Shown here piece after piece: positions 31,325 through 63,188 of a DNA stretch of 64,000 nt. Position numbers and translations under genes: made by a program. Origin of the DNA: Gammaproteobacteria bacterium (GTDB lineage: Bacteria; Pseudomonadota; Gammaproteobacteria; Steroidobacterales; Foliamicaceae); the NCBI GenBank assembly GCA_009844425.1, contig VYBN01000028.1:1-64000 (forward strand), given 5' to 3'. Below the pieces are notes generated by a model, which searched no databases, was not told where the DNA came from, and saw nothing but the letters and a program-made list of their open reading frames with translations. Positions within the stretch are counted from its first letter, which is position 1, and each line of letters begins with the position of its first letter.

Positions 31325-31423
31325 GCCGTTCTTTGCTTCCCTACTTCCGGGAGTGTTGGAGCCAGGGATGGCGGAACCAAGCCAGGGATGGCGTCTCCCG
31401 GAAGAAGGGGGACAAAGAACGGC
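31325..31423. repeat. Conserved-loop palindromic element, copy A
   Basis: Arms at 31325-31353 and 31395-31423 pair over 29 nt with a few mismatches (5' arm begins GCCGTTCTTTG). The 41-nt loop, read on the minus strand, contains GGTTCCGCCATCCCTGGCTC, shared with copies B, C and E. The right flank GAGATCGAAGCG recurs beside copies C, D and E. It lies 17 nt downstream of the rlmE stop and could end or process that transcript. The rest of the 283-nt gap (31158-31440) shows no gene. Confidence 0.75.
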
Positions 31424-31440
31424 GAGATCGAAGCGCCGAG

Positions 31441-32022
31441 TCAGGTGCGGCCAACCAGGTAGGTTTCGCGGCTCGCCTTTCTGGATGCCTCCGGCGTGCG
31501 AAGCCGCGCCTTGCGCAGGCCGGTGCGGGCCGTGGCGACGAATTCCTCGAAACCGGCGCCCTGAAAGAGCTTGGTCACGAACACGCCCCCCGGCCGCAAA
31601 AGTTCAAGAGCCGCTTCGAGGGCCATGGCGGCCAGTTCCATGGACACCGCCTGGTCCCGGTCCCGGTTGCCGCTCAGCTTCGGCGCCAGGTCCGAAAGGA
31701 CGGCGTCCGCCGGCCCGCCCAGGGCACGCCGGAGATCCGTGACGACCGCAGAATCTGCAATGTCCCCCTGCATGACCTCAACGCCCTTGATCGGCTCCAT
31801 CGGCTCGATGTCTATCGCCAGGATCCGCCCAGTGGGCGCCACCTTTCGCGCCGCGTACTGGCTCCATCCCCCGGGTGCTGCGCCCAGATCGACGATTCTG
31901 CCGCCACGGCCGAAGAGACGTTCGCGGCGATCGAGTTCCCGAAGCTTGTAAACCGCCCGGGACCGCCATCCTTCCGCCCGCGCGCGCCGGGTCCAGTGAT
32001 CCGCCCAGGCGCCTGTTTTCAT
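31441..32022 (-). CDS. rlmE: 23S rRNA (uridine-2552 2'-O) methyltransferase RlmE
   Basis: A 193-residue FtsJ-family enzyme that methylates U2552 of 23S rRNA in the 50S subunit. Visible are RSRAVYKLRELDRRERLF at the start, the SAM-site IVDLGAAPGGWSQYAA near 41-56, DIEPMEPIKGV, the catalytic Asp region VLSDLAPKLSGN near 108-119 and the lysine in VFVTKLFQG. Length is slightly below the usual 205-210. It lies 7 nt downstream of greA; a palindromic repeat follows its stop. Confidence 0.95.
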   Translation of the reverse strand: MKTGAWADHWTRRARAEGWRSRAVYKLRELDRRERLFGRGGRIVDLGAAPGGWSQYAARKVAPTGRILAIDIEPMEPIKGVEVMQGDIADSAVVTDLRRALGGPADAVLSDLAPKLSGNRDRDQAVSMELAAMALEAALELLRPGGVFVTKLFQGAGFEEFVATARTGLRKARLRTPEASRKASRETYLVGRT

Positions 32023-32029
32023 CCTGGCC

Positions 32030-32506
32030 TTATTCGTAGTTCACGGCCAGGATCTCGAAGCTTCGAAGGCCCCCCGGCGTGCTGAGTGAAATCTCGTCGC
32101 CTTCGTACTTCCCGATCAATGAACGGGCCATCGGCGAGACGAATGAAATCGCGTCGTCACGCACCCTGGCCTCGTCCTCGCCCACGATCTGGTAACTGAC
32201 CTGTCCGCCTCCGTCCAGACTCCTCAGATCCACGGTAACGCCGAAGACGACACGCCCGTCATGCGGGATCCGGTCCAGGTCGATCACGCGGGCGTGGGCC
32301 AGGCGCCCTTCGATATCGCGGATGCGGGCCTCGACCAGTCCCTGCTGCTCCTTGGCCGCGTGGTACTCGGCGTTCTCGCGCAGGTCGCCGTGCTCGCGGG
32401 CCTCTCCTATGGCGCGCGCCAGACGCGGACGATCCTCGTTCCTCAGCCGCTTCAATTCCTCGCGCAACGCGTGTTCGCCGGCGCGGGTCATCGGAACCTG
32501 GGTCAT
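32030..32506 (-). CDS. greA: Transcription elongation factor GreA
   Basis: A 158-residue factor that rescues backtracked RNA polymerase by stimulating transcript cleavage. The N-terminal coiled coil (residues 8-75) carries the acidic tip segment [19 protein letters not shown]; the C-terminal FKBP-like domain ends in [10 protein letters not shown]. Length is normal. It overlaps the carB stop by 4 nt, the standard order carB-greA. Confidence 0.96.
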
Positions 32507-35500
32507 GTGGCCATTGCCTCGTGCAGGTCCTGCAGCCGCGATACCGCGCCTGCCCCGTAGTAGTCGATGGCCCGGCAGGCCGCGTCGGCGGCCGCCAGCG
32601 TGGTGAAGTAGGTGACGTTGTTGCGAACGGCCTGCTCCCGGATTTCGTGCGACTCCAGGATCGAGGCGCGCCCCTCGGTGGTGTTCACGATCAGGTCCAC
32701 CTCGCCGTTGCAGATCAGGTCCACGATATGCGGGCGTCCCTCGCGCACCTTGTTGATGCGCCTGCAGGAAACTCCGTGGCGTGCCAGGAAGCTGGCGGTC
32801 CCGTGCGTGGCCACCAGGTCGAATCCCTTCAGCTGCAGCATGCGCGCGAGGTCCACCGACTCCTCCTTGTCCGGATCGCGCAGCGACAAAAGGGCCGCGC
32901 CACCCCGCTTGAGGTCCACGCCGGCGCCTTCCTGGGCGCGGGCGTAAGCCTCGGCAAAACTGGTTCCCACACCCATGACCTCGCCGGTGGACTTCATTTC
33001 CGGGCCAAGTATCGGGTCCGCGCCGGGGAACCGGGAGAACGGAAAGACCGATTGCTTGACCGAGAAATACGCCGGCCGCGGAGGATCGCCGACTCCCTGC
33101 TGGTCGAGGGTGCGCCCCACCATGACCAGCGCGGCGACCTTGGCGAGCTGTATGCCGACTGCCTTGGAGACGTAGGGCACGCTGCGCGAGGCCCGGGGAT
33201 TCACTTCCAGGACGTAGATGTCGCCGTCCTGGATCGCGAACTGCACGTTCATCAGCCCTCGCACGCCCAGCGCCTCGGCCATAAGCCCGGTCTGGCGCGC
33301 CAGTTCCACCTGCACGTCCTCACCGGCGGTTGCGGGCGGCAGGCAGCAGGCCGAGTCCCCGGAGTGGACCCCGGCCTGTTCGATGTGCTCCATGATTCCG
33401 CCGATCAGGACCCGTTCGCCGTCGTAGATCGCGTCAACGTCGAATTCCACCGCCCGGGGCAGAAACTCGTCCAGCAGCACCGGGCTCTCGTTCGACACGG
33501 ACACGGCCTCGGCCATGTAGCGCCGCAATTCCTCCTCGCCGTGCATCACGTCCATCGCGCGCCCGCCCAGGACGTAGGAAGGCCTGAGCATCAGCGGGTA
33601 CTTGAGTTCCCGTGCCATTCGCACCGCCTCGTCCACCGAGCGCGCGGTGCGGTTCTCCGGCTGCCTCAGGCCCAGTTCCCGGAGCAGGTCCTTGAAACGC
33701 TCGCGATCCTCGGCCCGGTCGATGGCGTCCGGGGGCGTTCCGATAATCGGGGCGCCGGCGCGGTCCAGGTCGCGCGTGATCCGAAGCGGCGTCTGTCCGC
33801 CGTACTGGACGATCACGCCCCGGGGCTTTTCGCGCCGGACAATTTCCATGACGTCCTCGACCGTCAGGGGCTCGAAGTACAGCTTGTCGGAGGTGTCGTA
33901 GTCGGTGGAAACGGTCTCCGGGTTGCAGTTCACCATGATCGTCTCGTAGCCGGCTTCGCGCAGCGCCAGCGCCGCGTGCACGCAGCAATAGTCGAACTCG
34001 ATGCCCTGCCCGATCCGGTTGGGCCCGCCGCCCAGGATCATGATCTTGTCCCGGTCGGATGGTTCCGCCTCGCACTCCTCCTCGTAGCTGGAATACATGT
34101 AAGCGGTGGACGTGGGAAATTCCGCCGCGCAGCTGTCGACGCGCTTGAAGACCGGCCCTATCCCCGCCGCCCGCCGCCGTTCCGTCAGCTGCTGCTCGCT
34201 CACGCCGAGCAGATGCGCCAGGCGGCTGTCGGCAAAGCCCTTGCGCTTCAGTTGCACGAGCCGGTCTTCGCTCAAGGCCTCCAGTCCGGTGGTCTTCAGC
34301 GCCTCTTCCTCGCGCACCAGGTCCGCGATCTGGCCTATGAACCACGGATCGATCCGGCACAGTTCGAAGACTTCCCGCTCGGACATCCCCAGGCGCAGGG
34401 CATCGGCCACGTACAGCAGGCGTTCCGCGCCCGCGGTGCGCAGTTCCTCGCCGACCAGCGCCCGCGCATCGGGACTGGAGGAGTCCACCCGTTCGCACAG
34501 CCCGTCGATGCCGATCTCCAGGCTGCGCAGGGCCTTCTGCAGCGACTCCTGAAAAGTCCTGCCCAGCGACATCGCCTCGCCGACCGATTTCATCTGGGTG
34601 GTCAGCCGCGCATCGGCGCGAGGAAACTTCTCGAAGGCGAAGCGCGGCGCCTTGGTCACGATGTAGTCGATCGCCGGCTCGAAGGAAGCCGGCGTCCGCC
34701 CGGCGGTAATCTCGTTCCTCAGTTCGTCCAGCGTATAGCCGACGGCCAGCTTGGCCGCCACCTTTGCGATAGGAAACCCCGTGGCCTTGGAAGCCAGCGC
34801 CGACGAGCGCGAAACCCGCGGGTTCATCTCGATCACCACCATTCGGCCGTCGCCGGGATGAATCGCGAACTGCACGTTGGAGCCTCCCGTATCCACGCCG
34901 ATCTCCCTCAGCACCGCGATGGATGCGTCGCGCATGCGCTGGTATTCCTTGTCGGTCAGGGTCAGCGCCGGCGCCACGGTAATCGAGTCGCCCGTGTGTA
35001 TGCCCATCGGATCGATATTCTCGATCGAGCAAACGATGATGCAGTTGTCGCGAGCGTCGCGAACCACCTCCATCTCGAATTCCTTCCAGCCCAGCACCGA
35101 TTCCTCGACCAGAGCCGAGTGGCTGGGGGACGCGTCCAGCGCCCGCGCCATCGCCGCTTCGAACTCGGCCGCGTCGCGGGCAATGCCGCCGCCCACGCCG
35201 CCCAGCGTAAAGGAGGGGCGGATGATGGCCGGATAACCGATCTCGCCGATCACATCCAGCGCCTCGGGAACGCTGCGGACCATCCAGGAGCGGGGCGTTT
35301 CCAGGCCAATGGACAGCATTGCGTCGCGAAAGCGCTCGCGGTCCTCGGCCTTGTCGATGACGTCGCCGCGGGCGCCGATCAGCTCCACGCCGAACTGCTC
35401 GAGAACGCCCTCCCGGTCGAGTTCCAGCGACGTGTTCAGGCCAGTCTGCCCGCCCATCGTGGGAAGCAATGCGTCCGGACGCTCGCGCTCGATCACCGCG

Positions 35501-35724
35501 GCCAGCGAGCGTGCGTTCACCGGCTCGATATACACCGCGTCTGCGGTTTCCGGGTCGGTCATGATGGTGGCCGGATTGGAGTTGGCCAGCACCACGCGAT
35601 ATCCCTCCTCGCGCAGCGCCTTGCAGGCCTGAACGCCGGAATAGTCGAATTCGCAGGCCTGACCGATCACGATCGGGCCCGCGCCGATGATCAGCACGCT
35701 TTCGAGATCGTCCCTACGAGGCAT
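32503..35724 (-). CDS. carB: Carbamoyl-phosphate synthase large subunit
   Basis: A 1073-residue enzyme with two homologous ATP-grasp halves, making carbamoyl phosphate for arginine and pyrimidine synthesis from bicarbonate, ATP and ammonia passed on by CarA. The first half opens with [20 protein letters not shown], the second with [20 protein letters not shown]. The C-terminal allosteric MGS-like domain ([14 protein letters not shown]) is present. The ATG at 35724 begins the canonical [10 protein letters not shown], with GGGGACC upstream; the TTG at 35745 is not needed. carA is not directly upstream as usual but 1.26 kb away. Confidence 0.97.
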
Positions 35725-35870
35725 GGCCTGGTCCCCGTTAACCAAACAGCTGAGCGGATATGAGACTGGGTGGTGATGCCCACTCGGGCGGAAAGATACT
35801 CGGACGAGGTTACGTAGTCCAGCGCCGCGTCGGTGACGGCGGCTACATCACAAGCGCGCGGGCCCTCCGT

Positions 35871-36083
35871 TCATTTGGCCTCAGGCGTAGAAGACACGTC
35901 AGCCGACGCTTGTAGCTGGCCTTGAGCGATCATTACGCCTTCGATCCTCCCCACACGGGAATTCAGGGATGACACTTGTTCGTTCAGCGTATCAAGACGG
36001 TTGTTCGTATCCGCCCAAGTCATCCATACAGCAACCAAAATAGCGGCGCCCATCCCCAGTACAGTGAGAATTTCCTTGTTCAT
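35871..36083 (-). CDS. Small membrane-anchored coiled-coil protein
   Basis: A 70-residue protein with one N-terminal membrane helix (LTVLGMGAAILVAVWMTW) and a coiled-coil segment with heptad spacing (NNRLDTLNEQVSSLNSRVGRIEGVM). No family recognised. It overlaps the upstream coiled-coil gene by 4 nt (ATGA), and both have the same plan, so they may interact. It lies in the patch that separates carA from carB; the 146 nt between it and carB hold no clear feature. Confidence 0.6.
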   Translation of the reverse strand: MNKEILTVLGMGAAILVAVWMTWADTNNRLDTLNEQVSSLNSRVGRIEGVMIAQGQLQASADVSSTPEAK

Positions 36084-36466
36084 TTCTCTCCGCTCTGGCG
36101 TAGTCGTCCATGTGCGGCGGGAGCCCCAGTTAGCGCCAGGTGGCCCTCAATGCGGGCCACGCGCTCGGTCAGCTCGTCCAAGCGGGCATCGATGCGCTCA
36201 AAGCGGGCATCCATGCGCTCGAAGCGGGCATCGACTCTTTCGAATTCGGTGCGCACATCCTGGCGCAGGTCAGTCATACCTGTGCGGAAGTCGGCGCGGA
36301 GATCGGAAATGCTGTTGAGCACCAGGGCGTACGAGGCCAGCAGCGCGGTAGCCAGCGCGATGGCGGGACCGTGTTTCCGCAAGGGCTCCTTCTTGGGCTT
36401 GTCCTTCGCCCTCACTGAGGGCGGGATACCCTCGCTTCTGGCACGTGCTTCCTGATTTTCCTTCAT
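36080..36466 (-). CDS. Membrane-anchored coiled-coil protein with short tandem repeats
   Basis: A 128-residue protein. The N-terminus is basic and charged, then one membrane helix (AIALATALLASYALVL near 35-50), then a long coiled coil. Inside it the units VDARFER, MDARFER, IDARLDE repeat in tandem with a 7-residue period, visible in the DNA as repeated GATGCCCGC-type blocks at 36180-36240. The layout resembles small DUF1640/XhlA-like coiled-coil proteins, but I do not assign a family. It is coupled to the next gene by a 4-nt overlap. Confidence 0.6.
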   Translation of the reverse strand: MKENQEARARSEGIPPSVRAKDKPKKEPLRKHGPAIALATALLASYALVLNSISDLRADFRTGMTDLRQDVRTEFERVDARFERMDARFERIDARLDELTERVARIEGHLALTGAPAAHGRLRQSGEK

Positions 36467-36652
36467 GGACTTGCCTTCCGAGGCGTTGCAGGATTCGTCG
36501 CAAGAATAGCACAGCCTGGCGAGTCCAAAAGGACGGAATGCTATGTGTTTGCGGGCATTCCGGAGCGCGGACTCAAGGCGTCAACACGGGTTTTACGCAG
36601 AGCCCGTTCAACTGATCCTCGACAGCCTAGTTGATCTCTTCGAGCGGATAGG

Positions 36653-36955
36653 ATGCGATCAGTTGGTCGAACGGAAATTCTCCATTGCGCGATTAACGGC
36701 CTGGCCTTGTATGGGGCTCGGGAACTCGCACCGAAACGCGTCAACGTCGTGAGCCCCGGGTTGGTTCATACACCGTTGTATGACGACATTGATCCTCATT
36801 TGTGGGAGCATCTCAAGGCGGACTTCGAGAAACTGAATCCGGTGGGATGGGTAGCCGAGCCGGAACACATAGCCGCTGCGTACATTTTCGTGCTGACGTC
36901 ACCCTACCTCACGGGCACCGTAATCCCAATCGACGGCGGTTTCCTGACTACCTGA
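36653..36955 (+). pseudogene. C-terminal remnant of a short-chain dehydrogenase/reductase
   Basis: About 100 residues remain of a family that is normally about 250 long. The remnant carries the end of the substrate domain and the C-terminus: RELAPKRVNVVSPGLVHTPL, then YLTGTVIPIDGGFLTT. The N-terminal Rossmann GxxxGxG motif and the catalytic YxxxK are absent. The sequence before about 36686 does not match the family. It is on the opposite strand to all neighbours and sits between carA and carB, so it marks an insertion that later decayed. Confidence 0.8.
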
Positions 36956-36988
36956 AGGAGCTCCCGCCCCGGGAGCGCTCGAACGCTC

Positions 36989-38113
36989 TTACAGGCGTTC
37001 CATCAGTCCGGCAAAGCGTTCGAAGGCGTAGCCCAGGTCGTGTGGGCCCGGGCTGGCCTCGGGATGGCCCTGGAAGCCGATGGCGGGACGGGTGCGGTGC
37101 GTCAGGCCCTGCAGGGTTCCGTCGAACAGCGAGCGATGGGTGGCCCTCAGGCTATCAGGCAGGCTTTCCTCTTCCACGGCAAAGCCGTGGTTCTGGCTGC
37201 TGATGGCCACTTCCCCGCTTTTGAGGTCCACAACAGGATGATTGGCCCCGTGATGTCCAAATTTCATCTTCATGGTGCGTGCGCCGCAGGCCAGACCCAG
37301 GATCTGGTGCCCCAGGCAGATGCCCAGGACGGGCGTGCCCGAGTCCAGAATCTCCTTGACCGCTTCGATCGCATAGGTGCAGGGCTCGGGGTCGCCGGGT
37401 CCGTTTGACAGGAAAATGCCGTCGGGCTTCAGCGAAAGGGCCTCGCTTGCGGGAGCCTCGGCGGGAAGCACGGTCACGCGCCGGGCCAGACGGGCCAGCG
37501 AGCGGAGAATGTTGCGCTTGACGCCGTAGTCGTAGGCCACGATCCGGTCGAACTTCCGACCCTGCCCACCGCCGGTCCAGGCTATTTCCGGACCTCCGGC
37601 GTCCATCGGCCAGTCATAGGCCGAGTTCACGCTCACGACGCGGGCCAGGTCCATGCCGACCATGCCCGGCGCGGCGCGGGCCCTGGCCAGCGCCTCGTCG
37701 GAACGGTCCGTGCCGGTCAGGATGCAGCCCTGCTGGGCGCCCTCTTCCCTCAGGATGCGCGTCAGCCGCCGGGTATCGATCCCGGCGATCGCAACCGTGC
37801 CTTCGTCGCGCAGGAAGTCCGTAAACGGCGTGTCCTTGCGCCAGTTGCTTTCGACTACCGGCAGGTCGCGGATGATCAGACCCGCCGCATAAACCCGGTC
37901 GGACTCGTAGTCTTCGCGGTTGGCGCCGGTGTTGCCCACGTGGGGCACGGTCAGGGTAACGATCTGCCGGCAATAGGACGGGTCGGTGAGGATTTCCTGA
38001 TAGCCGGTCATGGCGGTGTTGAACACCACCTCGCCGACGGTCTCGCCATCGGCGCCGATCGACCAGCCACGAAACACGGCCCCGCCCGCCAAGGCTAGCA
38101 CCGCAGATTTCAC
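36989..38113 (-). CDS. carA: Carbamoyl-phosphate synthase small (glutaminase) subunit
   Basis: A 374-residue glutamine amidotransferase that supplies ammonia to CarB. The N-terminal CarA domain opens [18 protein letters not shown] and includes [20 protein letters not shown]; the class I glutaminase domain has the nucleophile cysteine in [12 protein letters not shown] near 260, and the His/Glu pair near [12 protein letters not shown]. It overlaps dapB by 4 nt. A short hairpin GCTCCC-GCCCC-GGGAGC at about 36961-36977 lies just past its stop. Confidence 0.97.
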
Positions 38114-38919
38114 CGGGTCGCGGAGGCCGCCATTACGGAAGATAAATCGTACAGTCCGGACGGTCGGCCGGCAAGCCAGCGTGCGGCGCGCAGCGCTCCG
38201 GCGGCGAACACGCCGCGGCTCAGGCTCTGGTGCCGCAATTCCAGCACTTCCTCGTTGCCGGCCAGCAACACGGAATGATTGCCGGAATAACCCCCTCCGC
38301 GTACCGCGCTGAACCCTATGGAACCCTTCTCCCGCGCACCGGTCTGACCATGGCGCTGGAATACGGCAACCTCGGAGAACTCGCGGCCGCGCGCCGCGGC
38401 GGCCGTCCTGCCGAGTTGCAGCGCGGTCCCCGACGGGGCATCGGCCTTGCCGCGATGGTGGGTCTCGACGATTTCGAGGTCGTAGTCGTCACCGAGCTGC
38501 CCCGCCGCCACCCTCAGCAGTTCATTCAGCACGTACACGCCCAGGCTCATGTTGCTGGCCTGCAATACGGCGATGCGCCCGGCCGCCTGTTCCAGGGCCG
38601 CCTGGCCCGCCTCGCCGATGCCGGTCACGCCCTCCACCAGTGCGCAGCCGGCTTCGGCGCAGGCCGACGCGATCTCCGCGGTCACGGCTGCGGAGGAAAA
38701 ATCGACCGCCACATCGGCGCCGGCAACGCTTTCGGCAGGCGAAGCCGTGACCTTGACGCCGGCGGCGGGCAGGTTTGCAGCCAGCCCGGCATCCTGACCT
38801 ATCCAGGCATCGTCGGGCGCCGCCAGGGCGCCGGCAAGCTCCAGGTCGCCAGCAGCGGCCACCCTCGCCATCAGTTCGCGGCCCATGCGGCCGCTGGCTC
38901 CCAGCAGGCTGATCTTCAT
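38110..38919 (-). CDS. dapB: 4-hydroxy-tetrahydrodipicolinate reductase
   Basis: A 269-residue NAD(P)H-dependent reductase of lysine and diaminopimelate synthesis. The dinucleotide motif [11 protein letters not shown] is at 7-17. The active-site region [20 protein letters not shown] is near 150-170, with the conserved His pair and Lys. Length is normal. It overlaps both dnaJ (upstream) and carA (downstream) by 4 nt, so this stretch is a tightly coupled operon. Confidence 0.96.
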
Positions 38920-40043: not shown

Positions 40044-40065
40044 TCAGGTTACTCCCTTCGAGTCC

Positions 40066-40172
40066 GCCGTCTCTTCGCCTCCTCCGTCCGGGAGACGCAT
40101 GAATACATCCCTGTAGCTTGCTCCGGCATCCCTGCCTCCAATACTCCCGGACGGAGGAGGCGAAGAGACGGC
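40066..40172. repeat. Conserved-loop palindromic element, copy B (between dnaK and dnaJ)
   Basis: Arms at 40066-40094 and 40144-40172 are perfect 29-nt reverse complements (5' arm begins GCCGTCTCTTCGCC). The 49-nt loop on the plus strand starts ACGCATGAATACATCC and contains GGCATCCCTGCCTCC, matching copies C and E. The right flank GGCTAC recurs next to copies C and F. It lies in the dnaK-dnaJ spacer, so the hairpin would be part of the shared transcript. Confidence 0.8.
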
Positions 40173-40189
40173 TACGGTGTGCGTAGCAA

Positions 40190-42223: not shown

Positions 42224-42293
42224 GCGCGGTGCTGCACCCTTCCCTCTGGAGCCACTTCGCGACGCTCCTGCCGGGAAGGGTGCAGCACCGCGC
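42224..42293. terminator. Strong hairpin between grpE and dnaK
   Basis: Arms at 42224-42244 and 42273-42293 are perfect 21-nt reverse complements around a 28-nt loop (5' arm begins GCGCGGTGCTGCACCC). It starts 1 nt after the grpE stop on the transcribed strand. There is no run of U after it, so it is not a standard factor-independent terminator; it may attenuate, protect or help process the grpE-dnaK mRNA. Confidence 0.55.
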
Positions 42294-42294
42294 T

Positions 42295-42920: not shown

Positions 42921-43141
42921 GGCGCCGTGTTACGCCCATATTCTCGCATCAGCGCGTCTCCCATTGCCCAGGGGCGCAACGCGGCCACGAGCCAGGGGCG
43001 TCGCGCCCTTCGGGAGCGAGCGTAGCGCGCCCCCGCGGCGTTGCAGCCGTTCGCAATACGGCGAGTATTCCGTGCCGGCTGCGCCTTGCAGGGACACGCT
43101 ACGCTCGCTCTGATGCGAGAATATGGGCGTAACACGGCGCC
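42921..43141. repeat. 32-bp nested inverted repeat in the grpE/nadK divergent spacer
   Basis: Arms at 42921-42952 and 43110-43141 are perfect 32-nt reverse complements; each, read outward, starts CTGATGCGAGAATATGGG. Inside, 43014-43027 and 43097-43110 form a second 14-bp inverted repeat (GAGCGAGCGTAGCG). The 357-nt spacer (42874-43230) holds nothing else I can name. Because identical arms point at both grpE and nadK, the arms could carry promoter or operator sites for both. Confidence 0.7.
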
Positions 43142-46218: not shown

Positions 46219-46246
46219 CCCGAACAGCCGCAGCGCTTCGATCCCG

Positions 46247-46350
46247 CCTGTTCTTGCCCCCTGCATCCGGGGGACGCATGAATCCATCCATGGAGCTCGG
46301 TTCCGCCATCCCTGGCTCACAAGCCCCCGAATGCAGGGGGCAAGAACAGG
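46247..46350. repeat. Conserved-loop palindromic element, copy C (between fur and bamE)
   Basis: Arms at 46247-46273 and 46324-46350 pair over 27 nt with one mismatch (5' arm begins CCTGTTCTTGCCCC). The 50-nt loop starts ACGCATGAATCCATCC and contains GGTTCCGCCATCCCTGGCTC; it matches the reverse complement of the copy E loop at 43 of 50 positions. Left flank CGCTTCGATCCCG and right flank GGCTAC recur at other copies. Confidence 0.8.
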
Positions 46351-46387
46351 CTACCGCGGAGCCCCGCTGATATACTCCGGCTCCGCC

Positions 46388-54793: not shown

Positions 54794-54880
54794 GTCAAGC
54801 CCCTCCCCTGTATGGCAAGTCTACAACGCGTTGCATCGCGTACTATTGCCCGGCACTGAAGTCAACCAACCGGATTCGTC

Positions 54881-55225
54881 ATGGCCGTTCTCTACCACAA
54901 CCCGCGATGCTCCAAGTCACGCGCGGCACTGGCGCTGCTCCAGGAGCGCGACCTGGAACTTGAAGTGGTGCGCTACCTGGAAAACCCGCCCGGCGAAGCC
55001 GCGCTGCGCGAACTGCTGGGCCAACTGGACATGACGCCGATCGATCTCATGCGCCGCGGCGAAGCCCGCTACCGCGAGCTGGGACTGAAGGCGGCAGACG
55101 TTACCGACGACGAGCGGATCCGGGCGATGGCCGAGAACCCCATTCTGATCGAACGGCCCATCTTCATCGCGCGCGGGAAAGCCGTGATCGGCCGCCCGCC
55201 CGAACGAGTGCTGGAACTTCTCTGA
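54881..55225 (+). CDS. arsC: ArsC-family arsenate reductase (glutaredoxin type)
   Basis: A 114-residue thioredoxin-fold protein. The catalytic motif is NPRCSKSRAALALL at 7-20, then YLENPPGEAALRELL and ENPILIERPIFIARGKAVIGRPPE with the arsenate-binding arginine region. Length is normal. No other ars gene (arsB, arsR, arsH) is near, so a general reductase role is also possible. Divergent from the 53744 hydrolase. Confidence 0.9.
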   Translation: MAVLYHNPRCSKSRAALALLQERDLELEVVRYLENPPGEAALRELLGQLDMTPIDLMRRGEARYRELGLKAADVTDDERIRAMAENPILIERPIFIARGKAVIGRPPERVLELL

Positions 55226-55249
55226 TCGGATCCAAAACAGGAGCAGAAC

Positions 55250-55912: not shown

Positions 55913-55928
55913 GAACACGCATACGCGA

Positions 55929-56034
55929 GCCCTTCATTGTCCCCTTTCGTCCGGGGGCGTCGGCGGCAGGAGCCGCCGCCGAGCCCCATGGATGGGTTCA
56001 TGCGTCCCCCGGAGGAAAGGGAACAATGAAGGGC
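55929..56034. repeat. Conserved-loop palindromic element, copy D
   Basis: Arms at 55929-55957 and 56006-56034 pair over 29 nt with two mismatches (5' arm begins GCCCTTCATTG). Read on the minus strand the loop starts ACGCATGAACCCATCCATGG as in other copies, but its other half is replaced by a GC hairpin (GGCGGC-AGGA-GCCGCC). The right flank GGGATCGAAG recurs beside copies A, C and E. It lies between the convergent membrane-protein and FGE genes. Confidence 0.75.
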
Positions 56035-56076
56035 GGGATCGAAGTAAGCCCTTATCAGCAACTCCGCTTCAAACGC

Positions 56077-56976
56077 TCAGCGCCGCGGATCGGCCGCGCA
56101 GCGGAATCCCAGGTTGTTCAGGCCCGAGTCGGGGGGAGTCATCATCCGAGCCTCCAGGCGGTATCCGCGACAGTAGTTCTCGCTGCACAGCCAACTCCCG
56201 CCACGATGCACCTTCTGGGTTCCGACGGCGGGACCCCGCGGGTTCTTCCTCGGCGAATTCAGGAAATAATCGGCCGCGTACCAGTCCTGGACCCACTCCC
56301 AGACGTTGCCCGTCAGATCGTGGAACCCGAACCCGTTGGGAGAAAAGGTCCCGACCGGCGCCAGACCCGAAAAGCCGTCACGTCCCCGGTCCTCGACCGG
56401 GAACTCGCCCTGCCAGAGGTTTGCCCGATGCGCTCCGTCCGGCGTCAGTTGGTTCCCCCAGGCATAGCGCGCGTCGGCCTTTCCGCCGCGCGCCGCGTAT
56501 TCGAACTCCGCTTCGGTAGGAAGCCGGGCGCCGCGCCATTCGCAGTAGGCGGCGGCATCGAACCAGGAAACGTGCACGACGGGGTAATCACCCGTTTCCC
56601 GATGCGACGAGCCGGGTCCGGACGGATGGCGCCAGTCGGCGCCGTCGCCCCGGGTCCACCCGCCTCTCCGCGTGTCGAAGACACCGGACCAGCCCAGCCT
56701 TTCCGACTCCGTGACATGGCCAGTGGCAGCGGCGAACTCGGCGTACTGGACGTTCGTGACCTCGTGCCGGTCCAGCAGGAAGTCATCGAGCGCGACCGTG
56801 TGCGCCGGCCCCTCGTAAGGCAGGCCATCGTTGGCGCCCATTGTGAATTCTCCACCCGGGACCAGCAGCATCCCGGGCGCGGCGGGAGCGGCCGGGCCAC
56901 CGCAGCCGCAAGCCAGCGCGGCGGAGAGCGCCAGTCCCGCAGGCATCGTGCGTCGCAGGCGAGTTACCCACTGCAT
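56077..56976 (-). CDS. Formylglycine-generating enzyme (FGE/SUMF1 family), exported
   Basis: A 299-residue FGE that converts the active-site Cys of sulfatases to formylglycine. The active-site block RGGSWLCSENYCRGYRLEAR contains C264 and C269 in the C-x4-C spacing of catalytic FGEs; GNVWEWVQDWY and GFRCA are also present. Many SUMF1-fold proteins lack these cysteines, so real FGE activity is likely. A hydrophobic N-terminus (AGLALSAALACGCGG) suggests export or lipoprotein anchoring, unlike cytosolic bacterial FGEs. It is the last gene of the operon whose second gene is a CSPSR-type sulfatase. Confidence 0.88.
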   Translation of the reverse strand: MQWVTRLRRTMPAGLALSAALACGCGGPAAPAAPGMLLVPGGEFTMGANDGLPYEGPAHTVALDDFLLDRHEVTNVQYAEFAAATGHVTESERLGWSGVFDTRRGGWTRGDGADWRHPSGPGSSHRETGDYPVVHVSWFDAAAYCEWRGARLPTEAEFEYAARGGKADARYAWGNQLTPDGAHRANLWQGEFPVEDRGRDGFSGLAPVGTFSPNGFGFHDLTGNVWEWVQDWYAADYFLNSPRKNPRGPAVGTQKVHRGGSWLCSENYCRGYRLEARMMTPPDSGLNNLGFRCAADPRR

Positions 56977-57024
56977 TGGCGAATTATCGCCGAGGACGCG
57001 ACGTCCTCGCGCCCGGGACCGGCA

Positions 57025-57516
57025 CTAGCCTGTCCGGGTTTTGCTCTGGACGGCGACGCGCGTGTTTTCCAGCATTTCCGACAGCGCGTCCAGATCCTCG
57101 GTGGGCTGGCCGGAAAGAATCTCGGAAACCGTTTCGTCGTAGTCGGCGTGCATCGCGTCCCAAAGCGCCCTGCCCTCCGCCGAAAGGGTCACGGACTGAA
57201 TCCGCCGATCCGAGCTTGACGTAATTTTTCTGACCAGGCCGTCCTGTTTCAGCCGGCTGACGACGCCGGTGATGTTGCCCTTGGTCACCATCAGGCTGGA
57301 GGCCAGTTCGCCCATGGTGAGCCCGTTCGGCGAAAGCGCCAGGGCGGTAAGAACGTCATAGCGCGGCAGGCTGGAATTGAATTTCTCCGAAAAGCGCCGC
57401 ATCAGCACCCGGTCGATACTCGAGAAGCAGCGGAGCAGCCCCAGCCAGGCCCGGCGATGGTGGGCCTTTTCCGGCAGCGACTCCAGTACCAGGTCGAATA
57501 CGGTCGGCTTGTCCAT
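57025..57516 (-). CDS. MarR-family transcriptional regulator
   Basis: A 163-residue winged-helix regulator. The DNA-binding part is LTMGELASSLMVTKGNITGVVSRL near 74-97, with the wing KITSSSDRRIQSVTLSAEG. Such proteins usually repress their own operon until a small ligand binds. It is inside the TonB receptor-sulfatase-amidohydrolase-FGE operon, so it probably controls it; the ligand may be the sulfated compound or its product. It starts 7 nt after the amidohydrolase stop. Confidence 0.9.
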   Translation of the reverse strand: MDKPTVFDLVLESLPEKAHHRRAWLGLLRCFSSIDRVLMRRFSEKFNSSLPRYDVLTALALSPNGLTMGELASSLMVTKGNITGVVSRLKQDGLVRKITSSSDRRIQSVTLSAEGRALWDAMHADYDETVSEILSGQPTEDLDALSEMLENTRVAVQSKTRTG

Positions 57517-57523
57517 GTTCCGC

Positions 57524-58852
57524 TCAGCGCGCGTCCTTGACGACCCGCCCGCCCTGAATCACGACCTGGACGTTCATCAGCACCGAGATATCGGTGAGCG
57601 GGTCGCCGGCAACGGCGATCAGGTCGGCAATCCTGCCCGGCTCCACCGTTCCCAGTTCGTCCTCCATGCCGATCGCCGCCGCGGCGTTCACGGTAGCCGT
57701 AACGATCGCCTCTTCCGGGGTCAGGCCGTGCTCCACGTACAACTCGAGTTCGCGCGCATTGTTGCCGTGCTTCGTGACCCCGGCGTCGGTGCCGGCCGCG
57801 ATCGTAACGCCGGCCTTGTGCGCGGCCAGGATGCGGGGTCCGTGATTGTCGAGAAAGCTCCGCATCAGGCCCGCCATCTCGTCGTCCGCGCTGCCGATGT
57901 CCGCGCGGATAATGTCCTGCACAGCCAGCGTCGGCACGAGGTAAACACCGTTCTCGCGCATGATCCGGTGGGATTCCGCATTGTTGAACGAACCATGTTC
58001 TATGGACCACGCGCCGAGACGCGCCGCCAGATTGATGCCGTCGGTGCCGTGTGCATGCGCGGCCACCTTCAGCCCGCGGGTGCCGGCCACCTCCACGATC
58101 GCCCGAAACTCGTCTTCCAGAATGACGGCGGGAGCGAACTGGTTGCCGCAGGGCTTCGAGCCGCTGCATGTGGCCACGACCTTGATCAGGTCGGCGCCCA
58201 TGTCGATCTGCACGCGGGTTGCGCGGCGGCAGGACTCGACGCTCCAGCAGGCGCCCGGCCCCTCGTCGGCGCCCAGCCGGATATGGTGTCCGGCGGTGAT
58301 GATGCGCGGGCCGGTCAGGAGGCCGTCGCGAATCCCGTCGCGCAACGCGAAGATATGCCAGCCGTCGGCGCCGACGTTCCGGACGGTCGTGAACCCGGCC
58401 TCAAGCGTCTTCCTGGCATTGTCAATCGCGTTCACCATGAAATAGGCGTCGTCCTTCGCGACGCGATGCTGGACCGCATACGGATCCGATACGCCGTAAC
58501 TGCGCTGGCCTTCGACGCCGAACTCCATGGAAAGGTGCACGTGCATGTCCATCAGGCCGGGCAGCAGCACGGCATCCCTCAGATCCAGAAACTCGACCTG
58601 TGCGCTGTCGCTGTCGGCCGCGGCCGACGGATCGACGAAGCCGTCCCGGACCGCGGCAATCCTTTCATCGCTTACGACGATAGTCTGGTCCGTGAGCACT
58701 TCGCTGCCCGGCACGGCAATCACCGTTCCTGCGTGAATGACCAGCACGCCCGGCTCCTGCCGTTCAGATTCCGTTTCAGCGGCGAGCGCCGGTCCCAGGC
58801 AAACCAGCGCCGCGCCGGCCAGCGTTCTGCCAACAAGCCGTTTCCAGTTCAT
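57524..58852 (-). CDS. Exported amidohydrolase (imidazolonepropionase/prolidase-like)
   Basis: A 442-residue metal-dependent hydrolase with a signal peptide (LAGAALVCLGPALAAETES). Metal motif LMDMHVHLSMEF gives the HxH; KVAAHAHGTDGI gives the next histidines, and GTDAGVTKHG the Asp; AAAAIGMEDELGTVEPGRIADLIAV closes the family pattern. Exported members of this group cleave dipeptides or cyclic amides. The ATG at 58852 with a GGGGGGAACG site is preferred to an upstream frame. It lies 19 nt after the sulfatase and may act on the desulfated product. Confidence 0.87.
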   Translation of the reverse strand: MNWKRLVGRTLAGAALVCLGPALAAETESERQEPGVLVIHAGTVIAVPGSEVLTDQTIVVSDERIAAVRDGFVDPSAAADSDSAQVEFLDLRDAVLLPGLMDMHVHLSMEFGVEGQRSYGVSDPYAVQHRVAKDDAYFMVNAIDNARKTLEAGFTTVRNVGADGWHIFALRDGIRDGLLTGPRIITAGHHIRLGADEGPGACWSVESCRRATRVQIDMGADLIKVVATCSGSKPCGNQFAPAVILEDEFRAIVEVAGTRGLKVAAHAHGTDGINLAARLGAWSIEHGSFNNAESHRIMRENGVYLVPTLAVQDIIRADIGSADDEMAGLMRSFLDNHGPRILAAHKAGVTIAAGTDAGVTKHGNNARELELYVEHGLTPEEAIVTATVNAAAAIGMEDELGTVEPGRIADLIAVAGDPLTDISVLMNVQVVIQGGRVVKDAR

Positions 58853-58871
58853 CGTTCCCCCCAGGGCCCCG

Positions 58872-60290
58872 TTACCGGGGATAAGTCTCTTCAAGGTCGT
58901 GCGTGCGCAGCGCATCGAAGTGCCGCCGGGCGCTCATCAGCGCGTTCTTGTGTTCGTTCAGCATGCCCGGAAAGCGGTCGGCGTAGCTGTAGGCCTCGCC
59001 GTGGATGCCGTCGGCATCCAGCAGCATCTCGTACGGCGCGGCGAAACCGGGAAGCTGGTCGAATTTCTCGAATGCGCCGAGACTGCCGAGATAGTAGGCG
59101 TGGGTCACGTATTTCCAGTCCTGCGAGCGCACGCCCACAACGCGTTCGTTGTTGAAGTAATAGAGGAAATCGTGCGCGGACTCATCCGCGCCCCTGAACA
59201 CGGGCAGCAGGCTGCGCCCGTCCACCGTGGCCGCCGCCGTCTCAAGGCCGAGTATGTCGGCGATCGTCGGCAGCAGGTCGATGTTCATCGCCATGGCGCC
59301 GGTCACGCGGCCGGCAGCGATAACGTCGGGCCAGCTCGCAATCAGGGGCACGCGGTAGCCACCGTCCCAGGACGTTCCCTTGCCGCCCCTGAGTCCGCCC
59401 GTTCCGCCTTCGAAGAACGGGCCGTTGTCGCTGGTAAAGATGACCAGCGTGTTCTCCGCGATGCCCTGCTCTTCGAGCGCCGCGAGCACCTGCCCGGTGC
59501 TCCAGTCCAGCTCCTCAACCGTATCGCCGTACAGGCCGGCCCCGGATTTCCCGAGAAACTCTTCGGAGGCGTAGAGAGGGATGTGCGGAAAAGTGTGCGC
59601 GAGAAACAGCATGAACGGCGCGTCCGCGTTCTCCGTTATGAAACGAACGGCCCGGTCCGTATACCGCCGGGTAAGCGTGCTCTGGTCCACCGGCTGCTCG
59701 ACCAGGGCCTCGCCGTCGTAGAGCGCGAAATTCGGCATGTCGTTGCTCGCCGGAGCGCCGAAGAACCCGTCGAAGCCATGTTTGAGCGGGAAATGTTCGG
59801 GGAAATTGCCGAGATGCCACTTGCCCAGGTAGAGCGTCCTGTAACCTTGCCGTTTCACCAGTTCGCCGAGCGTTTCCTCCGCTTCCGGGAGGCCGTGCGT
59901 AGCTTCGGCATCGACCACCTTGAATGCCAGGCCCGAGCGGATCGCGTAACGGCCTGTCATCAGCCCGGCCCGCGAGGGGGAGCAGACGTTTGCGCTGGCG
60001 TATCCCTGCGTGAACCGCAATCCGGCCGCAGCCAGGCGGTCGATGTTCGGCGTCCTGATCCTTTTGGCGCCGTACGCGCCGATGTCGCCGTAGCCGAGGT
60101 CGTCGGTGAGGATTACGACGATATTGGGCGGCGTTGCGGGCATGGTGGGCGCGCCGCCGCTCTCAGGCTGCGCGGCTCCCGCATCGGTATTGCCCTGCGC
60201 GGGCGTATCGGGACCCGCGCAGCCCGCCGCCAGCAGCAGAACCGCTGCTGCTGTCTGAGGCAGGCGGGCGCGTGCGTTGCGAGCCGGCAA
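58872..60290 (-). CDS. Arylsulfatase-type (S1) sulfatase, lipoprotein
   Basis: A 472-residue formylglycine sulfatase. Signal peptide AAAVLLLAAGC with lipobox AAGC (C24). Metal site ILTDDLGYGDIGAYG near 60-74 with the DD pair at 63-64; the modification motif CSPSR has C103, which FGE would oxidise; TGRYAIRSG and GKWHLG follow. It removes sulfate from an organic sulfate ester at the cell surface or periplasm. It is 8 nt downstream of a TonB receptor and shares the operon with an FGE, a complete uptake and desulfation unit. Confidence 0.93.
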   Translation of the reverse strand: MPARNARARLPQTAAAVLLLAAGCAGPDTPAQGNTDAGAAQPESGGAPTMPATPPNIVVILTDDLGYGDIGAYGAKRIRTPNIDRLAAAGLRFTQGYASANVCSPSRAGLMTGRYAIRSGLAFKVVDAEATHGLPEAEETLGELVKRQGYRTLYLGKWHLGNFPEHFPLKHGFDGFFGAPASNDMPNFALYDGEALVEQPVDQSTLTRRYTDRAVRFITENADAPFMLFLAHTFPHIPLYASEEFLGKSGAGLYGDTVEELDWSTGQVLAALEEQGIAENTLVIFTSDNGPFFEGGTGGLRGGKGTSWDGGYRVPLIASWPDVIAAGRVTGAMAMNIDLLPTIADILGLETAAATVDGRSLLPVFRGADESAHDFLYYFNNERVVGVRSQDWKYVTHAYYLGSLGAFEKFDQLPGFAAPYEMLLDADGIHGEAYSYADRFPGMLNEHKNALMSARRHFDALRTHDLEETYPR

Positions 60291-60298
60291 GAGTCCGC

Positions 60299-62791
60299 TT
60301 AGAAGTCCGCGGTCATCGTCCAGGCGAGGTTGACGAACTGGCCGCCGGGCGTCGTAACCGCGCCCGAATGCGAGAAGCTGTCCACGCCCGAGTAATAGTC
60401 CTCGTCCAGCAGGTTCGACACATTGAGCGTCAGGCTGTGATTGCTCCAGTCCAGTCCCGCCTGAAGGTTCAAGATGGTCGCGGAGGGCGAAACCCGGGGG
60501 AACACCGAGGCCGGAATGTCCGAGAAGCGCGCCACCATTTCCGAGCGGTAGTTTGCCGTCAGGCGCACATAGCCGCTGAAGCCGTTCGCTTCCCAGTCAT
60601 ACTGCCCGGACACGGATGCGGTCGTTTCCGGCGCGCTGGGCAGCTCTTCGCCGCTCACGTCGCCCTGGGGCGCGTTGGTGAAACTGTCGAACTTGGCGTC
60701 CATGAAGCCGATCGCGCCCATCAGTGTGATCGAATCGCCCACCAGGGTCTGGGTGCTGATCTCGAGGCCCTGGCTGCTGGCGGAATCGGCGTTCGCCACG
60801 ACGTTAAGCGGGGCGAACCCGGTCCCGTTGGGCGGGCAGTCCGCCGGAGAGGGCACGATTTCCTGCCCGGGGGTACAGCGCGTCTGGGCCAGACGGACCT
60901 GCATGTCCTCCCAGTCCATGCGGAAGACGGCGGCCTCCACCTGAGTGCGGCGATTGTTCAGGAACGCCTTCCAGCCGATCTCGTAGTTGGTGACGGTTTC
61001 CTCGTCGAACCGCGAGCGCGGGTCGTAGCTGGGACCGCCGGTGCGGGACACGCCATCGGGCGCGGTGCGGGCCCCCGGCGCCCGATAGCCGGTGGAGACC
61101 GTCGCGTAGGCCGACGCATCGTCGCTGTAGTTCCAGTTGAGCGCCACGCGGGGCGAGAAGTTGCTGCCGTCGTTGCTGGTGTCCAGATAGGGATTGTCCA
61201 CCGTCTGGTCAAATCGACCGCCGCTGGTGAACTGAGCGCCATTGGGGCCGGTGTAGATCAGCACGTCCTGTTCCGGTTGCAGCGCGCAATTCTCAAGAAA
61301 CGGGGCCGGCACGCCGTCGACCACCGCGCGGCGGCCGCAGGCGAAGGACGCGTAGGTGTTTTGCCAGAACTGCCGGTCGTCGTCCGACGAATACCGCCCG
61401 CTGACCGATACCGTCACCGCGTCCGTGACCTCGAAGCCGAGGTCGAAGAAGGCCGCGAAGCCGTCCCGCTGCACGGTGATTTCGTTCTCGTTGGGATGGT
61501 CGCCCGGGGTCGTGGCGCCCAGCGGCCCTCCGCCCGGGAAGCGGCCGGCCTCGATCACGTCGGCGCCGGAGATGATCGTGTTGTTCACCTGGGCTTCATC
61601 GTCGTAGGCGATGGCGCCCACCATCCATTGCACGGGCGTCGCGCCCATCATCAGCGGCTCGGTCGAAAACAGGCGGACTTCCTGGCTGATGGACTCGCTC
61701 TCGTAGTCCGAAATCCGGTTGAAGAAATCCATGCCGCTGTTGTCGATGTCCTCGTACTGGTACATGTCGCTGTCGATCATTCCGGTAATCGCGGTAATGC
61801 CGAATCGCGAGCCCAGGTACTCGAGTTTCGCGGTCAGGACCAGGTTCTCGACGTCCGTGTATCCCGGCTGGTCTTCGCACATCTTGTCGGTGTTCCCGTT
61901 CTCGGCGAATATCGAATCGCCCAGGCCGCAGGTCGGAGCATCCGCCACGGGTCCGCCGGAAGCGTTGAACAGAAACCCGGCTGGCCCGGACATGCTCGGA
62001 ATGCGGGCCTGCTGGTGGTCCTCTTCCTCGATGTACTGCCCCGCCAGGTCGATGGTCCAGTCGCCCGGCTTCCACCTCACGGCTGCGCGCATGTTGAGGT
62101 TGTCGTAGCCCGTGTCGTTGCCGGTTGGATGCAGGTTGTCCACATAGCCGTCGCTGGAGGTGAACGCCGCGCCACCGCGCGCGAACAGCTCGTCGTTGAT
62201 GGGCACGTTCCCGATCAGGCCGTATTCGTAGCCGCCGTGATTGCCGACGGCCAGCCGGACCTTGGCCATGCCGTTCTCGTCGGGCTTCTTCGAGATGACG
62301 TTGATGGCGCCGCCGGTCGCGTTGCGCCCGAAGTAGGTCCCTTGCGGACCGCGCAGGACCTCGATGCGCTCGATGTCGTCCAGGGGCGGATTGGCGCTGC
62401 CGCTGGCCACGAAGGCGGTGCTGAAATCGTCGACGAAATAGCCGATGGTGGGCCGGGACTGGATCAGGCGCTCGTTGCCGCCGTTGGTCAGGTCGCCCAG
62501 TCCGCGAATCGAGATGTCGCCGTTCTTGTTGCCCTGCTGATCGTTGGCCGTGAACGCAACGTTGGGCGTCATCTCCAGGAAGTCCCTGGCGCCCTTGAAA
62601 TTGCTGCGTTCGATCTGCTCGGCGGAGAACGCGGTAATGCTGATCGGCACGTCCTGCAGGGTCTGCTCGCGCCGCTGCGCGGTCACGATGATCTCGTCGA
62701 GCGCCTGCGCGCCGTCTTCCTGCGCGGGCAATGACGCCGGCAGGGTCAGCGCCAGCAACGGCAGAAGTGAAAAAACGGTCCTTTTGGTCAT
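60299..62791 (-). CDS. TonB-dependent outer-membrane receptor of the sulfatase operon
   Basis: An 830-residue receptor. Signal peptide ends near ASLPAQEDGA; TonB-box/plug start LDEIIVTAQRREQTLQDVPI; plug block RGPQGTYFGRNATGGAINVIS near 115-135; barrel to the end (NLAWTMTADF). It is the first gene of a five-gene minus-strand operon and probably imports a sulfated compound or its product. It shows the same general plug sequence as the receptor at 15282 but is not a close copy. Upstream lie two palindromic elements. Confidence 0.93.
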   Translation of the reverse strand: MTKRTVFSLLPLLALTLPASLPAQEDGAQALDEIIVTAQRREQTLQDVPISITAFSAEQIERSNFKGARDFLEMTPNVAFTANDQQGNKNGDISIRGLGDLTNGGNERLIQSRPTIGYFVDDFSTAFVASGSANPPLDDIERIEVLRGPQGTYFGRNATGGAINVISKKPDENGMAKVRLAVGNHGGYEYGLIGNVPINDELFARGGAAFTSSDGYVDNLHPTGNDTGYDNLNMRAAVRWKPGDWTIDLAGQYIEEEDHQQARIPSMSGPAGFLFNASGGPVADAPTCGLGDSIFAENGNTDKMCEDQPGYTDVENLVLTAKLEYLGSRFGITAITGMIDSDMYQYEDIDNSGMDFFNRISDYESESISQEVRLFSTEPLMMGATPVQWMVGAIAYDDEAQVNNTIISGADVIEAGRFPGGGPLGATTPGDHPNENEITVQRDGFAAFFDLGFEVTDAVTVSVSGRYSSDDDRQFWQNTYASFACGRRAVVDGVPAPFLENCALQPEQDVLIYTGPNGAQFTSGGRFDQTVDNPYLDTSNDGSNFSPRVALNWNYSDDASAYATVSTGYRAPGARTAPDGVSRTGGPSYDPRSRFDEETVTNYEIGWKAFLNNRRTQVEAAVFRMDWEDMQVRLAQTRCTPGQEIVPSPADCPPNGTGFAPLNVVANADSASSQGLEISTQTLVGDSITLMGAIGFMDAKFDSFTNAPQGDVSGEELPSAPETTASVSGQYDWEANGFSGYVRLTANYRSEMVARFSDIPASVFPRVSPSATILNLQAGLDWSNHSLTLNVSNLLDEDYYSGVDSFSHSGAVTTPGGQFVNLAWTMTADF

Positions 62792-62939
62792 TGGGTCCCC
62801 CTTGTGGGCAGCGCCTGACAGGCCCCGGAGCGCCGCAGGCTCAATGGATCAAAGCGCAAACACTTTACAGCTAAACCTTTTGACCCGTCAATCGGATGTT
62901 TCACCCGTCAATCTGAAAGTAGGAAGCCACTTCGGGGCC

Positions 62940-63040
62940 GCCTCTTTGTGTGTATTCCTCTCGCGGGAGGCGCCATCCATGGCTCGATTCTCGCTGTCCT
63001 TGCTCCAACGCTCCCACAAGAGGAATACACACAAAGAGGC
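62940..63040. repeat. Conserved-loop palindromic element, copy F (divergent loop)
   Basis: Arms at 62940-62969 and 63011-63040 pair over 30 nt with two mismatches (5' arm begins GCCTCTTTGTGTGTATTCC). The 41-nt loop keeps CGCCATCCATGGCTCG, but the rest differs from copies A-E. The right flank GGCTAC matches copies B and C. It is 40 nt from copy E. The 413-nt gap 62792-63204 holds E and F and nothing else I can name. Confidence 0.7.
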
Positions 63041-63080
63041 TACAGTCGGCGAAGATCCTGATTAGGGAGGCACTGCTTAA

Positions 63081-63188
63081 GCCGTCTCTATGCCCCCTTC
63101 TTCCGGGAATTTGTGAGCCATGGATGGCGGAACAAAGCTACAGGGATGTATTCATGCGTTTCCCGGAAGAAGGGGGCATAGAGACGGC
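63081..63188. repeat. Conserved-loop palindromic element, copy E
   Basis: Arms at 63081-63109 and 63160-63188 are perfect 29-nt reverse complements (5' arm begins GCCGTCTCTATGCCCC). Read on the minus strand the 50-nt loop starts ACGCATGAATACATCC and contains GTTCCGCCATCCATGGCTC, 43 of 50 positions as in copy C. The right flank GAGATCGAA matches copy A. It ends 16 nt past the TRAP-gene stop. Confidence 0.8.

Follow-up and report, generated by a model that had tools for sequence, protein, structure and literature searches.

Six palindromic elements (A to F) lie in the window, the 64,000-nucleotide stretch of contig VYBN01000028.1 that was analyzed as a whole. All six are bounded by GCC and GGC and consist of two arms around a loop of 41–50 nucleotides. 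They had been listed in a preliminary description of this DNA, and all were present, with arms of 28–30 bp containing zero to four mismatches. Two details of that description changed. B does have perfectly matched arms as claimed, but the second perfect copy is F and not E, which has two mismatches. Likewise, the reported agreement with the loop of C at 43 of 50 positions (counted by eye) was found, but with the reverse complement of F rather than of E. The GGA-bearing strand of each element is designated strand R and its complement strand F. In the following list, the strand given is that of R, and tips are the positions of A(N)GGA.

Element A, 31325–31423, strand R plus: arms 31325–31353 and 31395–31423 (29 bp, 4 mismatches); tips 31364–31368 and 31384–31388.
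Element B, 40066–40172, strand R minus: 29-bp arms, 0 mismatches; tips 40129–40133 and 40108–40112; between dnaK and dnaJ, with the dnaJ start 22 bp downstream.
Element C, 46246–46351, strand R minus: 28-bp arms, 1 mismatch; tips 46309–46313 and 46287–46291; a Fur-family gene lies upstream.
Element D, 55929–56034, strand R plus: 29-bp arms, 2 mismatches; tips 55968–55971 (AGGA) and 55988–55992; flanked by a convergent gene pair.
Element E, 62940–63040, strand R minus: 30-bp arms, 2 mismatches; tips 62997–63001 and 62976–62980; short-loop subtype, in an inverted pair with F.
Element F, 63081–63188, strand R plus: 29-bp arms, 0 mismatches; tips 63120–63124 and 63142–63146.

Read on strand R, each of the six loops contains two A(N)GGA motifs. 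The elements fold as RNA with z-scores of −6.3 to −11.1, and no shuffled sequence folds equally well. An ungapped inverted-repeat scan recovered five of the six, A being missed because of its mismatches, and a covariance-model search at E-values up to 0.01 found no further copy in the window.

The inverted pair formed by E and F spans 62940–63188, and such head-out pairs recur in G000 (the genome of the window), G002, G003, G006, G008, G019, and G032; in many of them, one member belongs to the short-loop subtype. Where G000 (L250) or G008 (L300) carries a pair, only one copy occurs in G002.

Other features were observed in the window. Positions 42921–43141 hold a second dispersed inverted repeat, with 36-bp arms that are 97% matched and a 149-nucleotide middle. 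This stretch is absent from the orthologous site in G002 and G003, has many copies at 78–95% identity in the genus, and looks like an ordinary MITE-like insertion. A perfect 21-bp inverted repeat with a 28-nucleotide loop (42224–42293) is not of the GGA-hairpin family. Positions 14641–14740, inside the open reading frame 13603–15144, match Rfam PYLIS_3 (pyrrolysine insertion sequence of mttB) at gathering level.

Distribution of the elements

The proposal that these elements form a dispersed family was borne out by blast and covariance-model matches in all nine genomes of the genus that were searched; the family recurs across the genome as well as the genus and is not confined to the window, so that the six are more than a chance occurrence. 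Blast with copy C gave 41 matches in its own genome among the best 40 candidates, C itself being matched on both strands. A covariance model (R1) built from 37 copies gave 37–149 matches per genome (149 in G000) among the best 150 candidates. These counts may include one palindrome on both strands, and we prefer the 64 distinct copies that were read in G000 (65 rows, with one place represented twice). An alignment (A1) was made from 40 copies, omitting L001 (identical to C), L010 (a chimera in which no stem was found), and L030 (which has a longer loop).

Within the same order, 13 of 59 sampled genomes match, and in the other families of the order the outer stems are unrelated while the apical core is the same. 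Named genomes were scanned with a pattern consisting of hairpin 2 of this core and its 3′ flank, yielding at least 117 stretches. Among the 80 matches listed, three titles say only Proteobacteria, and the rest are Gammaproteobacteria or taxa placed there. The genera among the matches listed include Xanthomonas, Stenotrophomonas, Methylotuvimicrobium, Marinobacter, Halopseudomonas, Cellvibrio, and Rheinheimera, all of which we take to be Gammaproteobacteria. These relatives also indicate Gammaproteobacteria as the class of the window's own genome. Stemmed elements were extracted from 113 of 147 loci (those of the order included), the long stem not being present in every match. A core model (R2) of 75 sequences, from an alignment (A3) of 75 of 112 cores, matched 53 of 274 genomes drawn across the class. 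The elements are a class-wide family of dispersed hairpins, and the spread of copies is real.

With one element as query, searches found no match in E. coli and none in phages, and two plasmid searches returned 0 and 2 records. The first record is the conjugative Ancylobacter plasmid pDCA (NZ_KU922118.1; L345 1501–1568), in which a diverged core is flanked by genes for an ISAs1-family transposase and a haloalkane dehalogenase; the second is a Xanthobacter plasmid aligned like pDCA. Two IMG/VR contigs of ~237 kb (L104 and L105) carry the hairpin-2 core without the long closing stem.

An apical module of two GGA-tipped hairpins

What is conserved in the element is an apical module, made up of two small hairpins with A(N)GGA at each tip, and not the arms. 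The class-wide consensus fold places hairpins 1 and 2 on a closing stem, and double changes occur in 19 of its 22 pairs. From the tip downward, hairpin 2 of this consensus has an ANGGAY hexaloop, three pairs, a bulge of five bases, and another three pairs. Hairpin 1 provides a clean test, because the pattern used in the search did not include it. A hairpin 1 of ≥4 bp is present in 92 of the 101 named-genome elements, and these comprise 67 different stems. A(N)GGA is found at the tip of 87 of these 92 hairpins, as compared with 29 of 947 hairpins from shuffled loops.

The two bases that flank NGGA, one before N and the other after GGA, are most often A and T (64 cases), followed by A and C (11), C and C (5), C and T (5), A and A (3), A and G (3), G and A (2), G and T (1), and C and A (1). 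The cases with C before N are mostly of the CAGGA form. The base before N is never G with C opposite, a change expected to be frequent at a position that is simply paired.

Under a strict 2-bp closing rule, 110 of the 133 unique copies in the genus have two A(N)GGA hairpins, 21 have one, and 2 have none. The GGA-to-GGA spacing is 20–23 nucleotides in the genus, and its median is 23 nucleotides in 125 of 131 class and order elements. In some copies, a longer, GGA-less hairpin takes the place of one of the two. The hairpin replaced is hairpin 1 in L237 (1501–1651), L239, L240, L303, L309, and L250 (2418–2567), and hairpin 2 in L233 (1634–1777). The G003 copy at site A has other hairpins, and both GGA tips are absent from it.

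The preliminary description had favored a mobile or recombining palindrome over a cis-regulatory RNA, and it had missed the two covarying hairpins with near-invariant A(N)GGA tips in the loop. These hairpins, taken together with stem mismatches that lean to one strand (see below), make a role as RNA (or as a single strand) likelier than was thought.

Resemblance to CsrA and RsmA sites

A passage of PMC7705225 gives the RsmA consensus as CANGGAYG and E. coli CsrA sequences as RUACARGGAUGU and AUGGAUG, while passages of PMC7652899 describe the CsrA site as an ANGGAN hexaloop and a single CsrA dimer as bridging two sites 10–63 nucleotides apart, with an optimum of >18. The element has the layout of a CsrA ligand, with A(N)GGA in a small hairpin loop and two sites within the 10–63 nucleotide range; the GGA pair, ~20–24 nucleotides apart, is arranged as in a two-site ligand for one CsrA/RsmA dimer. 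As a predicted fold, the module matches each point of the published consensus and spacing.

The csrA gene occurs once in each of the nine genus genomes. Across the class, 48 of 52 element-bearing genomes and 18 of 20 element-free ones have it. Three of the four element-bearing genomes lacking a csrA hit are <90% complete; the fourth, G256, is 98% complete and has 9 element matches. Since csrA is nearly universal, its co-occurrence with the element says little and has no power as a test.

The sponge RNAs CsrB/CsrC and RsmX/Y/Z are single loci with their own promoters. They resemble the element in having repeated GGA hairpin loops at dimer-bridging spacing (passages of PMC7652899, which also give 22 GGA motifs in the one RNA CsrB), whereas the element has two sites per copy and many copies. 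The element also differs from the CsrB/RsmZ type in having one long closing stem and in that no promoter of its own was seen in the alignment of flanks.

Covariation of the stems and probable copying between arms

The stems covary inside copies, as had been proposed: 23 of the 33 predicted pairs in the R1 alignment show double changes, with copies changed on both sides. This was followed at orthologous sites, for which 35 same-site pairs were available, 22 of them at ≥80% identity and 13 below 0.80. The totals use the 18 of these 22 pairs that include G000, the other 4 being left out. The 18 comparisons cover 508 stem pairs and contain 21 compensated double changes (12 transitions and 9 transversions; sites B and C are included repeatedly, so that a compensated change at B is represented twice), alongside 18 single changes and 1 double change that does not pair. 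If double changes arose independently at the single-change rate, well under one would be expected.

Individual sites illustrate the pattern. The four positions that differ between G000 and G002 at site C are two compensated pairs, and a compensated pair is the sole difference from G004 at site B. L268 differs from G003 by three compensated pairs, with an identical loop. Between L006 and G002, there is a matched 2-bp insertion in both arms and the loop is also changed; replacement by another copy is possible at this and the other pairs with changed loops.

The 21 compensated as against 18 single changes fit arm-to-arm copying, and compensated double changes between same-site orthologs point to such copying as what keeps the arms matched, in line with the earlier suggestion. 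This mechanism has precedent, as template switching has been described as mending stems in RNA genes (a passage of PMC8794818). Template switching or cruciform conversion would most simply explain the copying of one arm from the other.

The high rate of compensated changes, along with this known capacity of template switching, might suggest that the elements are relics without function, the arms of which are kept equal by template switching alone. However, GGA tips over covarying stems throughout the class are not expected from strand-symmetric mutation, and a strand-specific wobble bias (see below) is not expected from a process that treats both strands alike. We regard this explanation as extremely unlikely.

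Exchange between copies and mobility

Copies swap halves and recombine. Site C in G003 holds a chimera, the arms of which no longer match. Site B is occupied by a different copy in G005, and by a copy in the opposite orientation in G001. In this respect, the chimera at C and the different copy at B agree with the recombining palindrome envisaged earlier.

At site C, the element is present in G000, G002, and G003. The site in G004, G005, and G007 is a near-exact empty one that shows no clean target duplication and may reflect deletion; retention of GGCTAC at this site in G005 fits deletion equally. G006 and G008 also lack the element at C, and their flanks are more diverged. Comparison of filled and empty sites, which the preliminary description had called for, thus did not support insertion with a clean target duplication at site C. 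That description had also pointed to a REP-type Y1 transposase as a possible partner. The corresponding domain, PF01797, was found in none of the nine genus genomes, eight of which are ≥90% complete, and in 5 of 14 controls; a Y1 transposase was rejected as the mover in this genus.

These observations bear on an alternative in which the element is a mobile DNA hairpin whose folded strand R is recognized by an enzyme as single-stranded DNA. The GGA tips would then be recognition loops, and their likeness to CsrA sites a coincidence. High copy number, scattered sites, free orientation, inverted pairs like those of REP doublets, and differing copies at one site are all in keeping with this alternative. 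Against it are the lack of a Y1 transposase in all nine genus genomes, the lack of a clean target duplication, the outcome of the one-element searches of E. coli, phages, and plasmids given above, and the specific match of A(N)GGA to a known RNA-protein code.

Placement relative to genes

Genes were called by codon usage rather than taken from annotation, and the null for gaps between genes was 20 stretches of G008 plus the window. Overlap with a predicted gene occurs in 1 of 137 genus rows (the rows include one place twice and same-site orthologs) and in 9 of 98 placed elements at named-genome loci. Of the 134 genus rows with two neighbors, 48 are convergent, 79 codirectional, and 7 divergent. 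As 13.6% convergent and 22% divergent gaps are expected, the elements are enriched in the former and depleted in the latter. The nearest stop codon is a median of 22 bp away (129 genus rows). The nearest gene end reads R and F evenly in the genus (64:65), bearing out the claim that orientation relative to genes is free, and leans to F at named-genome loci (27:50). Neither the genus nor the named-genome loci have a preference of gene orientation that would favor a strand-R read-through RNA.

The recurring flanks noted earlier are real, being conserved over 65 rows (64 places) of the window's genome. C at −8, C at −5, and A at −1 are conserved before the stem, and GGGATCGAAGCG after it, and clear conservation ends 8 nucleotides before and ~14 nucleotides after the stem. 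This alignment has no conserved promoter-like sequence upstream that would travel with the element, and a promoter belonging to each copy was rejected because the upstream sequence is not conserved. A T-run does not occur in the flank consensus of the 65 rows, nor was a terminator-like site found at B, the one site scanned. In G008, which is a single contig, strand R was compared with the direction of replication: 9 of 15 copies lie on the leading strand, with 2 borderline, of 17 placed. The switch points, near 1.2 and 2.9 Mb, came from the GC skew of 20 stretches and copies were classed by hand; no preference was concluded.

The location a median of 22 bp after stop codons, the enrichment between convergent and depletion between divergent genes, and the very stable fold are features of a 3′-end mRNA element, that is, a terminator or exonuclease barrier, REP-like, that acts in cis on read-through transcripts. 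The absence of a terminator-like site at B and of a conserved T-run in the flanks argues against such an element, and it leaves the GGA tips unexplained. The distribution of wobble pairs provides a further argument.

Strand bias of wobble pairs

A stem site that forms G·U on one strand is A·C on the other. When penalties are set equal for stem finding, G·U pairs on R and F number 164:35 in named-genome elements and 36:6 in same-order elements; a harsher penalty gives 121:19 and 26:1, respectively. When one element is taken per arm cluster (59 clusters), the ratio is 81:25 and the wobble pairs are distributed over the length of the stem; 39 clusters favor R and 10 favor F. The bias is weaker in the genus (43:23) and absent from genus copies between convergent genes (13:12). 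Hairpin 1 stems have no wobble bias (4:3).

The R:F ratio of wobble pairs at named-genome loci is 41:11 where both neighbors read F and 28:4 where both read R; for the genus, the values are 19:8 and 9:3. Selection on read-through mRNA would predict the opposite lean in copies read on F, and those at named-genome loci do not show it. A cis role in the 3′-UTR is therefore disfavored as the source of selection, and we consider a 3′-end mRNA element improbable as an explanation of the family.

The bias toward R, whichever way the genes read, points to the folded strand R as what is seen by selection. Selection seems to have acted on this strand either as RNA or as single-stranded DNA. The second form is what the mobile hairpin would require: a folded single DNA strand acted on by an enzyme would give the same wobble bias, and independence from gene orientation at named-genome loci is expected if structure matters at mobilization. 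Weighing this with the evidence on mobility given above, we find the mobile DNA hairpin with coincidental CsrA likeness unlikely, though the foremost of the alternatives.

Comparison with known repeats and small RNAs

The consensus of one Rfam family, RF02770 Ysr224 (Yersinia sRNA 224), holds the strand-F core CGuaAAuaCauCCaUGUAgGCuC...GCGCCaUCCcuGGCGC by residue alignment. Ysr224 is filed as one sRNA gene on strand F, whereas the module of the element is on strand R. Because microRNA models give long perfect hairpins scores of up to 41 bits, sub-threshold Rfam matches were accepted only where the primary sequence agrees. Of 6 loci searched with the Ysr224 model, 2 gave a match at the element, with 30.4 (Methylotuvimicrobium, the best) and 24.4 bits versus a cut-off of 70. 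At gathering level it has no match in the window, and it was not among the matches to copy B at E-values up to 10. It was found in none of the nine genus genomes and, in the same search, in none of 14 controls, and was rejected as a search family.

In a passage of PMC12112432, Ysr224 is reported to be multi-copy with copy-specific expression in Y. ruckeri, and a table in PMC9029176 has it among the 20 most prevalent bacterial sRNAs; these passages on Ysr224 mention neither a dispersed palindrome nor GGA tips. The earlier statement that no named family has this build therefore needs qualifying. Part of the family is already named, Ysr224 holding the same core on the other strand. Among the open-licence papers listed by literature searches, those for CsrA/RsmA together with repeats included, none describes the repeat or its GGA tips; one of six core 15-mers occurs in PMC4107847.

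The shared core, and the multiple copies with differing expression in Y. ruckeri (a passage of PMC12112432), raise the alternative that the elements are independent small RNA genes like Ysr224, each with its own promoter. Sequence upstream is not conserved beyond 8 nucleotides, however, the Ysr224 model describes strand F and not R, and the nine genus genomes gave no match to the family (nor did any control of that search). We consider independent genes of this kind very unlikely.

REP/BIME sequences of RAYT transposases are similarly intergenic, high in copy number, palindromic, and found in inverted pairs (a passage of PMC2817692), and a GTAG-like start in many genus copies resembles REP. 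However, REP sequences are ~20–37 nucleotides in that passage, whereas the element is ~106 bp (99–108) with a structured loop of 41–50 nucleotides. GTA before the stem occurs only in the genus, outer ends differ between lineages, and there is no GTAG-type conserved foot as in REP. Conserved terminal inverted repeats of the MITE type are absent, the genus sharing only the outermost GCC/GGC and the inner end.

ERIC, YPAL/RU-2, and Correia/NEMIS are ~100–200 bp intergenic repeats that fold into long stem-loops (a passage of PMC2229807). The element, with variable ends and a conserved apical module, is set apart from these by description only. P. aeruginosa Pae-1, an intergenic family of 84 bp, comprises 133 matching sequences (61 of them complete) and folds into an adjacent stem-loop pair (passages of PMC2267715); compared by description only, it could be a relative. 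We place the family among small intergenic palindromic repeats, in which it stands out by conserving a two-site CsrA-type tip rather than its ends.

Interpretation

The explanation we prefer, to which we give about an even chance, is that the element is a non-autonomous dispersed hairpin with a CsrA/RsmA-type apical module on strand R. The functional part would be this module, in which the stem opens into two hairpins with A(N)GGA(Y) exposed in loops of 4–6 nucleotides. The long stem diverges between copies and yet remains self-matching inside each, probably through DNA copying of arm from arm, and copies also exchange halves. From the motif, its hairpin context, and the spacing, we infer that RNA of strand R may be bound by CsrA/RsmA; transcribed copies would then serve as scattered decoys or be CsrA-protected RNAs. 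The further proposal that a class-wide mobile element spreads two-site CsrA/RsmA decoys, making it a scattered counterpart of CsrB/RsmZ, is tentative, and we consider it somewhat unlikely.

If the decoy reading were true, copy number would tune a global regulator, or a selfish element would use that regulator, and each stem would be rewritten at the DNA level yet kept paired. If strand R does bind CsrA/RsmA, free-living gammaproteobacteria would carry dozens of unannotated two-site ligands, and Csr/Rsm regulons and sRNA annotations, that of Ysr224 included, would read differently. Whatever its function, the family offers a natural test of pairing in long stems: its copies are numerous, orthologs at the same site can be compared, and both compensated transversions and chimeras with swapped halves occur.
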